Source of the DNA: Anaerolineales bacterium
Lineage (GTDB): Bacteria > Chloroflexota > Anaerolineae > Anaerolineales > Villigracilaceae
Assembly (NCBI GenBank): GCA_020060625.1
Contig: JAGUZU010000057.1
Location: 1 to 64,000 of the forward strand
DNA: 64,000 bases
Direction of reading: 5' to 3'
Made by a program: the position numbers and the translations under genes. Below are positions 48,462 through 52,115 of this stretch, one piece after another (within the stretch, counting starts at the first letter, position 1; each line of letters begins with the position of its first letter). The notes below the pieces were generated by a model. The model saw nothing but the letters and a program-made list of their open reading frames with translations. It was not told where the DNA came from and searched no databases.

Positions 48462-49874
48462 AATCAACTCATGCAGCGCCTTCACCGCATTCTCCGTATC
48501 CGCCGCATCCACGACGAGGGAGATGGAAACTTCCGAAGAACCCTGCGCAATGGCGAGGACGTTGACGCCGTGATTCCCCAATTGACTAAAAACCCGCCCC
48601 GAAACGCCGGGGGTGTGGCGCATCCCCGCGCCGACGACGGTGATGATGGAAATATCGTCGGTTGCCCAAACGCGGTCAATATCCTGGTCTGTGATCTCGG
48701 CGGCGAACGTCTTTTCCAACGCCGATAGAATGGTCTGTGTCATTTCAGCGGGGACAGCAAAACAAATGGATTGCTCGGAGGATGCCTGTGTAATCAAGGG
48801 AACGCTCGTGCCTGTGGAAGCCACCGCCCCGAACGCGCGCGCCGCCACGCCGGGGACGCCCAGCATCCCGCGCCCTTCGATGGTGATTAATCTTTGCTTG
48901 CGGATGGCGGTCACGGCTTTCACGACCCGCCCATTGACCGGCTTGCCGTTCGATTTTCCATTCGCTGTCAAGCGCGTGCCGGGATGGCTTGGGTTGAACG
49001 TGTTGCAAATGCGCAAGCCAATGCCCGCCTCCAACACGGGGCGGATGGTTTTGGGATGCAGGACTTTCGCGCCATAGTAGGCGAGTTCCGCGATTTCGTT
49101 GTAGTTGATCTCAGGCAGGGTTTGCGCCGAAGGCACAAGGCGCGGATCTGCCGTCATCACGCCGTCCACGTCCGTCCAAATCCACACTTCATCGGCGGGG
49201 AGGACAGAGCCAATGATCGCAGCGGAATAATCGCTCCCGCCGCGACCTAAAGTGGTCACTACGCCTTCGAGCGTTGCGCCGATGAAGCCGGTAGTCACAG
49301 GGACAATGCCCGCATCCAATAACGGGATTAATTTTTCCCTTGTTTTTTCAGTTGTTGTTTTGAAATCGGGATGGGCGTTTTGAAAATGGGAGTTGGTAAC
49401 CACGAACTCTGTTGTCTCGATGTCTTGGGTTTTTATCCCGGCGTCGCTGGCGGCTGCTGCGAGCAGGTGTATGCACATGCGTTCGCCGAGGGAAGCCACC
49501 GCGTCCATTGCGCGCGGGCTGGCTTCGCCAAGAACGGTAATCGCTTTGCACAAATTCACGAGCGAGAGGATTAGAGCGTTGATTTCCTGTTTTGTTTTTT
49601 CGCGCAGGTTTTCATTCTTAATTAGCGAGTCCGCAGCGGAGAAGTGCCGCGCTCTCAGCGCGGATTCGGTTTGGGTCAACGAATCAATTTTCCCGTGCGA
49701 AGCGGAGGCGGCGGAGTCCAACAGCAGGTCGGTCACGCCGGACATGGCGGAGGTCACGACGACGACGCGACCCCAATCCTTTTTTGAATCGCGGATGATC
49801 TGTGCGGCGATCTTCAACGCATCCGCCGACCCGACGGATGTTCCCCCGAATTTCATGACCAATGTTTTTTGCAT
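48429..49874 (-). CDS. Aspartate kinase
   Basis: TLVMKFGGTSVGSADAL, VTTLGRGGSDYSAAIIGSVLPADEVWIWTDVDGVMTADPR, C-terminal ACT-type region; SD aaggag, start 49874. Confidence 0.95.
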   Translation of the reverse strand: MQKTLVMKFGGTSVGSADALKIAAQIIRDSKKDWGRVVVVTSAMSGVTDLLLDSAASASHGKIDSLTQTESALRARHFSAADSLIKNENLREKTKQEINALILSLVNLCKAITVLGEASPRAMDAVASLGERMCIHLLAAAASDAGIKTQDIETTEFVVTNSHFQNAHPDFKTTTEKTREKLIPLLDAGIVPVTTGFIGATLEGVVTTLGRGGSDYSAAIIGSVLPADEVWIWTDVDGVMTADPRLVPSAQTLPEINYNEIAELAYYGAKVLHPKTIRPVLEAGIGLRICNTFNPSHPGTRLTANGKSNGKPVNGRVVKAVTAIRKQRLITIEGRGMLGVPGVAARAFGAVASTGTSVPLITQASSEQSICFAVPAEMTQTILSALEKTFAAEITDQDIDRVWATDDISIITVVGAGMRHTPGVSGRVFSQLGNHGVNVLAIAQGSSEVSISLVVDAADTENAVKALHELIIEGYRLKVEG

Positions 49875-49888
49875 AAGGTTCTCCTTGT

Positions 49889-49919
49889 GAGTAAGTCGGA
49901 TTGCCAATCCGACTTACTC
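49889..49919. repeat. Perfect hairpin adjacent to the aspartokinase SD
   Basis: GAGTAAGTCGGATTG-C-CAATCCGACTTACTC, 15-bp arms. Confidence 0.85.
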
Positions 49920-49925
49920 GATAAC

Positions 49926-49954
49926 AAAAACGCCCCACGTTTCCGTGAGGCGTT
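49926..49954 (-). terminator. Attenuator terminator upstream of aspartokinase
   Basis: Minus strand AACGCCTCACG-GAAA-CGTGGGGCGTT followed by a T-rich tract. Confidence 0.9.
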
Positions 49955-49980
49955 GTGTGTTTTGATCAACCTGGATTCGG

Positions 49981-50064
49981 TTACTTCATCCCATGCACAA
50001 ATGCCTCACGGCGGGGACCGGAGGTATTCATAGTCATGGTGGTGGCGAAGTGGACCGATTTCAT
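49981..50064 (-). CDS. Thr/Met-rich leader peptide MKSVHFATTMTMNTSGPRREAFVHGMK
   Basis: 27-codon ORF between a strong promoter and a terminator; TTMTMNT codon run; downstream codons contain the antiterminator arm. Confidence 0.8.
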   Translation of the reverse strand: MKSVHFATTMTMNTSGPRREAFVHGMK

Positions 50065-50074
50065 GTTGGGCGGT

Positions 50075-50103
50075 ATTCTATGAGAAGGTGATGGATGTGT
50101 CAA
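50075..50103 (-). promoter_or_regulatory. Predicted sigma70-type promoter for aspartokinase leader
   Basis: Minus strand TTGACA (50103-50098), 17-bp spacer, TAGAAT (50080-50075). Confidence 0.85.
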
Positions 50104-50182: not shown

Positions 50183-50210
50183 TTGACGGATTTCTGATTC
50201 TGCCTATAAT
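50183..50210 (+). promoter_or_regulatory. Predicted sigma70-type promoter for ilv-leu operon
   Basis: TTGACG (50183-50188), 16-bp spacer, TATAAT (50205-50210). Confidence 0.85.
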
Positions 50211-50232
50211 CGGGCGAAATACCCACAGCCCA

Positions 50233-50334
50233 ATGAGCAGCATTTTCTCCCTCTCCCTTATTATTGTCGTCCTTGCGGTCCTTATTATTAAGGATCTATT
50301 TTCGGTTAGGATGGCAACGGTGAGAGTGAAGTAA
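50233..50334 (+). CDS. Branched-chain leader peptide MSSIFSLSLIIVVLAVLIIKDLFSVRMATVRVK
   Basis: 33-codon ORF; LSLIIVVLAVLII has 11 of 13 Ile/Leu/Val; followed by terminator and ilvD. Confidence 0.88.
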   Translation: MSSIFSLSLIIVVLAVLIIKDLFSVRMATVRVK

Positions 50335-50357
50335 AAAAGACACACCTGCGCAAGCGC

Positions 50358-50390
50358 AAAGAGCCGCCCTAACCACGGGCGGCTCTTTTT
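50358..50390 (+). terminator. Attenuator terminator upstream of ilvD
   Basis: AAAGAGCCGCCC-TAACCAC-GGGCGGCTCTTT plus T run. Confidence 0.92.
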
Positions 50391-50447: not shown

Positions 50448-52115
50448 ATGCGATCAGATACAGTCAAAAAAGGGTACGAAAAAGCGCCGCACCGCGCATT
50501 GTTGCGCGCCACCGGTTTGAAGGACGAGGATTTTAACAAGCCGTTCGTTGCCATTGTCAACTCGTATGTGGACGTTGTGCCGGGTCACGTTCATTTGCAG
50601 GAGTTCGGCAAACTGGTGAAGGATGCCGTCCGCGCGGCAGGCGGGGTGCCGTTCGAGTTCAACACCATCGGCGTGGACGACGGCGTGGCGATGGGTCATG
50701 CGGGGATGAAGTACTCGCTTCCTTCGCGGGAGTTGATTGCGGATTGCGTCGAGACCATGATCGAAGCGCATCGTTTTGACGCGATGGTCTGCATCCCCAA
50801 CTGCGACAAGATCGTGCCGGGCATGCTGCTTGCCGCGATGCGGGTCAATGTGCCGACCATCTTCGTTTCCGGCGGACCGATGGCGGCGGGGATGACGCCC
50901 GAGGGCGAAACGATTGATTTGATTTCCGTGTTTGAGGGGGTTGGCGCGTATTCCGCCGGGAAAATTGACGAAAACCGCCTCACCCTGCTGGAGAAGTTTG
51001 CCTGCCCATCCTGCGGCTCTTGCTCCGGGATGTTTACCGCCAACTCTATGAACTGCCTCATGGAAGTGTTGGGATTGGCATTGCCTTATAACGGTTCCGC
51101 GTTGGCGAAGACACCCGAACGGGAAGCGTTGGCGAAGCAGGCGGCGGCTCAGATCATGACCTTGATCGAGCGCGACATCAAGCCCAGAGACATCGTCACC
51201 GCCGAAGCCATTGACGACGCCTTTGCGCTGGATATGGCGATGGGCGGCTCGACGAACACGGTGCTGCACACGCTGGCATTGGCGAACGAGGCGGGCGTGG
51301 ATTATCCGTTGGAGCGAATTAATTCTGTTGCAGATAAAGTGCCGCATATTTGCAAAGTATCGCCAGCCGGCAAGTGGCACATGGAGGATGTGCATCGCGC
51401 GGGCGGAATCCCGGCGATATTGAACGAAGTGCAGCGGGGGACGGGGATGCTGCATTTTGAAAGGTTAACAGTAACTGGTAAATCATTGGGGGAATCGATT
51501 CAAGGTTTGGAAATCAAAGATGATGAAGTCATTCGACGTTATGACAACGCGCATTCCAAGCGCGGAGGGTTGTCCGTTTTGTTTGGCAACCTCGCGCCGA
51601 ATGGCGCGGTGGTGAAAGTGGGCGGCGTGAGCGAAGCAATGATGAAGTTCGAGGGTCCGGCAGTCATTTTTGAATCGCAGGATGAGGCGATGGCGGGAAT
51701 CTTGGCGGGCAAGGTCAAGGCGGGGGATTGCGTCGTCGTGCGTTACGAAGGTCCGAAGGGCGGACCGGGTATGCAGGAAATGCTTTCGCCGACATCCGCC
51801 ATCATGGGGCAGGGACTGGGCGACAAGGTTGCGCTCATCACGGACGGTCGCTTTAGCGGCGGGACGCGCGGCGCGTGTATCGGTCACGTTTCGCCGGAGG
51901 CGGCGGCGCGGGGTCCGATTGCGGCGTTGAAGGCTGGGGATGTGATCCAGATTGATTTGGCGGCGCGCAGGCTAAACGTTAAGTTGAGCGAGGCGGAGAT
52001 TCAGAGTCGGCTGGAGGCGCTGACTCCATTCGAGTCCAAAGTCACATCGAAGTGGCTGCGGCGGTATTCGTATTTTGTCACGAGCGCGGATACGGGAGCG
52101 GTTCTACAAAGTTAA
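50448..52115 (+). CDS. ilvD: Dihydroxy-acid dehydratase
   Basis: [72 protein letters not shown]. Confidence 0.97.

Follow-up and report, generated by a model that had tools for sequence, protein, structure and literature searches.

A probable ribosome-mediated attenuator with threonine and methionine codons upstream of the aspartokinase-asd operon in Anaerolineales

The thrL leader of Escherichia coli encodes a leader peptide with Thr codons, forms alternative hairpins and carries an intrinsic terminator, and in this manner it governs the aspartokinase step. The element described below resembles thrL (RF00506) in each of these respects, but its control codons are for Thr and Met rather than Thr and Ile, and its target is an aspartokinase-asd operon instead of thrABC. 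It also resides in another phylum, and its leader ORF lacks a Shine-Dalgarno (SD) sequence and is predicted to have almost no 5′ untranslated region (UTR). The general mechanism is that of thrL, hisL and trpL, and is already textbook knowledge.

Other described attenuators share some of these characteristics. Transcription of the ilvBNC operon of Corynebacterium glutamicum starts one nucleotide from the start codon of a leader that has no ribosome binding site, and a three-hairpin scheme for this attenuator has experimental support (PMC11857589). For our locus a near-leaderless layout is predicted from sequence and a three-hairpin scheme is proposed, whereas the C. glutamicum system uses branched-chain codons, controls ilvBNC and belongs to the Actinobacteria (PMC11857589). 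Mycobacterial cys leaders likewise consist of short ORFs with runs of codons for the pathway product, but these are Cys codons rather than Thr and Met codons, and no conserved terminator hairpin accompanies them (PMC1262725). In other phyla, the His, trp and ilv attenuators follow the same logic of alternative hairpins and control-codon runs for other amino acids (PMC1262725, PMC9413887), and in Actinobacteria no conserved RNA regulatory structure was found for threonine or methionine operons (PMC1262725). The literature that we searched holds no report of an aspartokinase leader attenuator in Chloroflexota, although an earlier prediction is possible, most likely in Lopatovskaya et al. 2010. 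The aspartokinase target, the pairing of Thr with Met and the predicted, almost leaderless peptide gene, seen here in a group of uncultured Chloroflexota, seem to be previously undescribed, and the locus would add the aspartate pathway of this phylum to those under attenuation of the classical type.

The leader region upstream of aspartokinase

The window (the whole 64,000-nucleotide stretch of DNA that was analysed) derives from an Anaerolineales bacterium whose genome assembly (G000) comprises 3.67 Mb and is 98% complete. The leader and its terminator are located between two divergent genes, ilvD (plus strand, ATG at 50448) and aspartokinase (minus strand, ATG at 49874), and the relevant features are as follows.

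50103-50098, minus strand: -35 box TTGACA (11 of 12 matches together with the -10 box)
50080-50075, minus strand: -10 box TAGAAT, after a 17-nt spacer; followed by ACCGCCCAAC and then directly by the leader ATG
50064-49981, minus strand: leader ORF MKSVHFATTMTMNTSGPRREAFVHGMK, 27 codons plus TAA, without an SD sequence
50043-50023, minus strand: putative control codons 8-14 (Thr Thr Met Thr Met Asn Thr), assigned by masked folding and from relatives
50018-50024, minus strand: segment 1, CCTCCGG, apical 5′ arm of the 1:2 hairpin, overlapping the last Thr codon
50011-50003, minus strand: segment 2 (S2), CCGTGAGGC, able to pair with segment 1 or segment 3
49951-49943, minus strand: segment 3 (S3), GCCTCACGG, common to antiterminator and terminator
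49954-49929, minus strand: predicted intrinsic terminator AACGCCTCACG-GAAA-CGTGGGGCGTT, 11 bp, then a T tract to about 49926
49886-49881, minus strand: SD sequence AAGGAG of aspartokinase
49874-48429, minus strand: aspartokinase, the first structural gene (NCBIfam TIGR00657, 422 bits, cut-off 209)
48351-47296, minus strand: asd, aspartate-semialdehyde dehydrogenase, the second gene (TIGR00978, 417 bits, cut-off 301)

A sequence-only reading of this region had proposed a Thr/Met leader-peptide attenuator, and the elements that it described are all in place, with every coordinate that it gave proving right. The exact 9-nt complementarity that it noted between S2 and the 5′ arm of the terminator is present (50011-50003 with 49951-49943), and the last Thr control codon, said to lie about 11 nt before S2, ends at 50023, which is 11 nt away. 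When the bases or the codons of the leader are shuffled, such a complement between leader and terminator arises in only 0.12% of cases. Six Thr or Met residues fall within one 8-residue stretch of the peptide, a number that none of 4169 segments from the window ORFs reaches. The intergenic region of 598 bp contains two promoter-like sites, including the leader promoter (0.5 in shuffles), and five terminator-like sites, including the 11-bp leader terminator (0.6 in shuffles). Two features here are characteristic of classical attenuators: a short leader ORF in which codons for an end product of the regulated pathway are clustered, and a predicted intrinsic terminator between this ORF and the first gene. 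On the basis of these parts and the comparative evidence below, we judge that a ribosome-mediated transcription attenuator of the classical type very probably controls the aspartokinase-asd operon.

Two neighbouring elements were also observed. Between the terminator and the SD sequence of aspartokinase there is a perfect hairpin, GAGTAAGTCGGATT-GGC-AATCCGACTTACTC (49889-49919), of which the window holds no second copy; relatives carry other inserts at this place, for example CCTCACCCC...CCCTCTCC repeats. On the other side, the divergent ilvD-ilvB-ilvN-ilvC operon (plus strand) has an apparent attenuator of its own at 50183-50388, with a promoter (TTGACG-16-TATAAT), a leader ORF rich in Ile, Leu and Val (MSSIFSLSLIIVVLAVLIIKDLFSVRMATVRVK, 50233-50334, plus strand) and a 12-bp terminator (50358-50388, plus strand) that precedes ilvD.

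Conservation, alternative pairing and a model for control

The component parts, their conservation, the codon enrichment and the covariation are all evident from comparisons of genomic sequence. We compared aspartokinase upstream regions comprising 70 from the family, those of named relatives (Chloroflexota, mostly Anaerolineales metagenome-assembled genomes, MAGs) and 60 more, almost all of them from other families of the class. A Thr/Met leader of the same kind is found in 63 of the 70 family regions (for example MNLTLTSMTTTTTTSRNSRGVLVHG and MCAYLMTTTTTTTSHSCGVLLFE), so that the leader ORF and its Thr and Met codons, whose retention in relatives had been suggested as a check, are indeed kept. 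Eighty aspartokinase upstream regions in all have such a leader at the same place, and given that these sequences are related, the counts do not represent independent events.

Among 77 distinct leaders, Thr makes up 29% of residues 2-18 and Met 10.5%, which is 5.2 and 4.3 times the background of the window ORFs, respectively, while Ile (0.35 times), Lys (0.66 times) and Asp (0.01 times) are not enriched. The Thr/Met excess is confined to frame 0, with Met nearly absent from frames +1 and +2, and all four synonymous Thr codons are used. Cys is also overrepresented in the leaders (3.2 times), mainly in N-terminal motifs such as CF and CC at residues 4-7, mostly just before the Thr/Met run; this stretch belongs to the 5′ arm of the folded leader.

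Pairing was assessed on an alignment of 52 sequences, with shuffles and with the partner strand slid by 1-3 columns as controls. The 3:4 terminator is paired in 99.5% of cells and has changes on both sides at 7 of its 11 pairs. The 2:3 antiterminator is paired in 93.1% of cells, and 24 cells are changed on both sides compared with 7.1 in shuffles. For the apical 1:2 helix (CCTC/GAGG), 96.6% of cells are paired, double changes number 8 versus 2.2 in shuffles, and 2 of the 4 pairs have changed on both sides. All three helices are lost when the partner is slid. Compensatory changes, which had been sought for the 2:3 and 3:4 stems, are therefore found above the level of shuffles, and antiterminator and terminator form the mutually exclusive, covarying pair of structures typical of an attenuator. 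The codons that overlap S2 switch amino acid (RE, RG, RR) with pairing retained. When the most variable positions were placed on a tree of 36 aspartokinase proteins, their double changes proved to have several origins. Joint change of the two sides was seen in about 2-3 of 4 supported independent pairs for 2:3 and in 3-4 of 5 for 3:4, and the opposite almost never, in a test of low power that is too small for significance. RNAalifold applied to the alignment recovered 3:4 well and the leader fold poorly, and therefore folds of single sequences and counts of the named structures were used instead.

By folding, the leader ORF forms a single long hairpin in most relatives examined, with the Thr/Met codons in its 5′ arm and S2 plus the subsequent GTGCNTGG stretch in its 3′ arm. 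This 1:2 hairpin overlaps the control codons, as is typical of attenuators. Leader folds are more stable than those of synonymous replacements that preserve the peptide for 60 of 64 leaders (mean z -1.44). A small variable stem round the leader stop codon (TAACCGA...GGTTA, 49990-49955 in the window) recurs in many relatives.

To approximate a stalled ribosome, its footprint was masked codon by codon and the RNA up to S3 was folded, leaving timing aside. For the window leader, 2:3 forms while the A site occupies codons 8-14 (TTMTMNT); from codon 16 onward this pairing is gone until the ribosome nears the leader end. The stall-permissive stretch ends 3-4 codons upstream of S2 in 57 of 59 relatives, and its last eight codons are 76% Thr or Met across relatives. 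In these models, stalling would matter where the Thr/Met codons sit. Because the permissive stretch often reaches toward the leader start, the procedure locates the 3′ limit of useful stalling and not its 5′ limit.

We infer the transcription start, leader translation, stalling, termination and the response to amino acids from these comparisons, and propose the following scheme. Transcription would begin a few nucleotides upstream of the leader ATG, and the near-leaderless 5′ end would load ribosomes. The leader ORF would fold into one long 1:2 hairpin; its 5′ arm holds segment 1 together with the Thr/Met codons, and its 3′ arm starts with S2. If charged tRNA is plentiful, or if the leader is not translated, 1:2 would form and S3 would be free for the 3:4 terminator, ending transcription upstream of aspartokinase. 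Under shortage of Thr-tRNA, and probably of Met-tRNA, a ribosome would stall in the Thr/Met run and melt or cover segment 1, leaving S2 to pair with S3; the terminator would be blocked, and aspartokinase and asd would be transcribed.

The off state is where our scheme departs from the sequence-only reading, which had a ribosome at the leader stop covering S2. Given that S2 extends from 28 to 20 nt ahead of the stop codon, a ribosome at the stop covers RNA downstream of S2, and this distance of about 20 nt together with the masked folds rejects the earlier proposal. With the footprint masked at the stop codon, 2:3 is still able to form in RNA that ends at S3, and the full RNA favours 3:4. Since the stop-bound ribosome leaves S2 uncovered and 2:3 can re-form, the off state would depend on refolding of 1:2 and on timing: the ribosome would traverse S2 during the synthesis of S3 and S4, and 1:2 would then refold. 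The long 1:2 hairpin from the leader ORF appears to explain the off state better than masking at the stop, although in a simple fold the free nascent RNA of some relatives favours 2:3 over 1:2.

Threonine, methionine and competing explanations

The comparative tests support the interpretation of the leader as a Thr/Met attenuator, although the two amino acids do not stand equally. Sensing of Met is less certain than sensing of Thr: Thr is present in the run of every leader, and internal Met is missing from 8 of 80. The element could therefore respond to threonine only, with the Met codons kept for CCATG/CATGG pairing in 1:2 or as extra starts. In several folds ATG does fall in paired stretches of the leader hairpin, and two SAM riboswitches score above the Rfam gathering score elsewhere in the genome (C148:14341-14517 and C3:42112-42286), which implies that other genes, probably Met genes, are controlled by other means. 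Against this, Met accounts for 22% of the last eight stall-permissive codons compared with a background of 2.4%, and it recurs in the runs of unrelated leaders from other families (TTTTMMTTM, MMTTTMMTMT, TTTMMTTT). Furthermore, in near-leaderless leaders of the genus other than those of aspartokinase only 3 of 626 residues are internal Met, versus 164 of 2112 in the aspartokinase leaders, and so Met is a trait of the aspartokinase leader and not a general habit. With these points in mind, we regard control by threonine alone as unlikely though far from negligible. A role of Met as a control codon is likely, and the Met codons may in part be incidental. The dual reading would provide a likely Met-sensing leader peptide, a kind that is not known to occur in the classical set.

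The functions of aspartokinase and asd suit the dual Thr/Met reading, and so does what is evident of the pathway. DapB was not found in the genome, and LysW is present (C27:3207, L269), on the contig at whose start the argG leader described below is located. Lysine is thus probably made by the LysW (aminoadipate) route, and the aspartate pathway would then probably feed Thr, Met and Ile but not Lys. A pathway with no Lys branch fits leaders that have Thr and Met codons without extra Lys codons, and the choice of control codons would accordingly be linked to the wiring of the pathway.

It is also conceivable that, instead of simply gauging codon supply, the leader encodes a peptide with a function in trans or one that arrests the ribosome as a nascent chain, as might be suspected from the C-terminal part (REAFVHG and similar) that is kept in close relatives. 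We consider this highly improbable, given that the C-terminal residues track S2 pairing and change with S2, and that leader folding is constrained beyond the peptide sequence. In other phyla, genes for aspartokinase or of the aspartate family are under the control of lysine riboswitches and T-boxes, which speaks for a ligand-binding riboswitch or a T-box with the ORF as its by-product. Such an element is extremely improbable here, because no Rfam family, Thr_leader (RF00506) and T-box included, matches the window at the gathering score, there is little conserved RNA beyond the leader hairpin and terminator, and conservation tracks the reading frame. Finally, terminator-like hairpins are common between genes, but a plain terminator or RNA-stability hairpin unrelated to a chance ORF beside it is scarcely credible in view of the rarity of the complementarity among shuffles and of the comparative evidence that already contradicts it, namely a leader, codon bias, position and pairing that are conserved and covary across many species.

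Leaders outside the family and a shared near-leaderless start

Outside the family, f11, f20 and f22 as well as several of the named MAGs also have Thr/Met leaders before aspartokinase, as candidate attenuators with putative S2:S3 pairing. Most of the terminators there belong to the CGCGGAGCC...GGCTCCGCG type. A contiguous-complement score, which takes only Watson-Crick runs into account, fails for many distant leaders. In most other families, a simple scan of aspartokinase upstream regions revealed no Thr/Met leader, and no strong Thr/Met leader was seen in the homoserine dehydrogenase upstream region. A covariance model (R1) did not lead to distant relatives, as in a sample of the order it matched its own family only, plus two weak matches (L271 and L272, family f63) that are His-rich leaders (MATVRTHAHHHCPSRTAGWLWRVG and MADIRTHAHHHRPSRQAGWLWRVG) before hisG.

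Within the set of 80 leaders, a similar start of the transcript is predicted for most. A TTGAC-17-TANANT promoter is found in nearly all relatives, and the gap between the -10 box and the ATG is 8, 10 or 11 nt in 72 of the 80. No leader has an SD-like 4-mer before its ATG (0 of 80), versus 80 of 80 aspartokinase upstream regions, for which a wider stretch was scanned. The spacing, from which a near-leaderless mRNA had been predicted, is thus largely conserved: the transcript probably begins close to the leader ATG, with a predicted 5′ UTR of 0-4 nt in 76 of 80 leaders and of about 3 nt for the window leader.

The promoter-start element is not restricted to aspartokinase. With up to three mismatches, TAGAATACCGCCCAACATG occurs five times in the genome of the window and its reversed control not at all, and four of the five sites are leaders, before aspartokinase, aroH, hisG and argG. 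Besides the aspartokinase leader, these are as follows.

C4:79280 (L156): Phe/Tyr near-leaderless leader before aroH, peptide MLKSARWFAYFYFYGFRNSAAVGGA
C125:43300 (L167): His near-leaderless leader before hisG, peptide MKYALKHHHHHIQPPHGREVYVRVPVTK
C27:138 (L231): Arg near-leaderless leader before argG, peptide MFAFFALPRTRRPKPTSMRRLGV...

Genus-wide, the same element precedes leaders of aroH or DAHP synthase, argG, carA and hisG. Because it precedes several amino-acid leaders across the genus, it looks like a shared cassette for attenuated operons. We lean towards the broader proposal that a dual Thr and Met attenuator suited to an aspartate pathway without a Lys branch belongs to an Anaerolineales-wide near-leaderless set (Thr/Met, Phe/Tyr, His, Arg and perhaps Lys) sharing a TAGAATACCGCCCAA-ATG cassette. 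The occurrence of this near-leaderless cassette before several amino-acid operons would offer a natural test set for fast ribosome loading on leaderless mRNA.

Additional leaders were noted in relatives. One locus (L245, genome G310) has the same promoter-start element and then a Lys-rich leader with AKAKRKPTS before a gene resembling homocitrate or isopropylmalate synthase, and this is possibly a lysine attenuator of the aminoadipate route. In five relatives of the genus (L243, L249, L251, L258 and L259), an Arg-rich near-leaderless leader, for example MFRQLYARRVHRSKLTFLERLEVF, is located before carA, which codes for the small subunit of carbamoyl-phosphate synthase.
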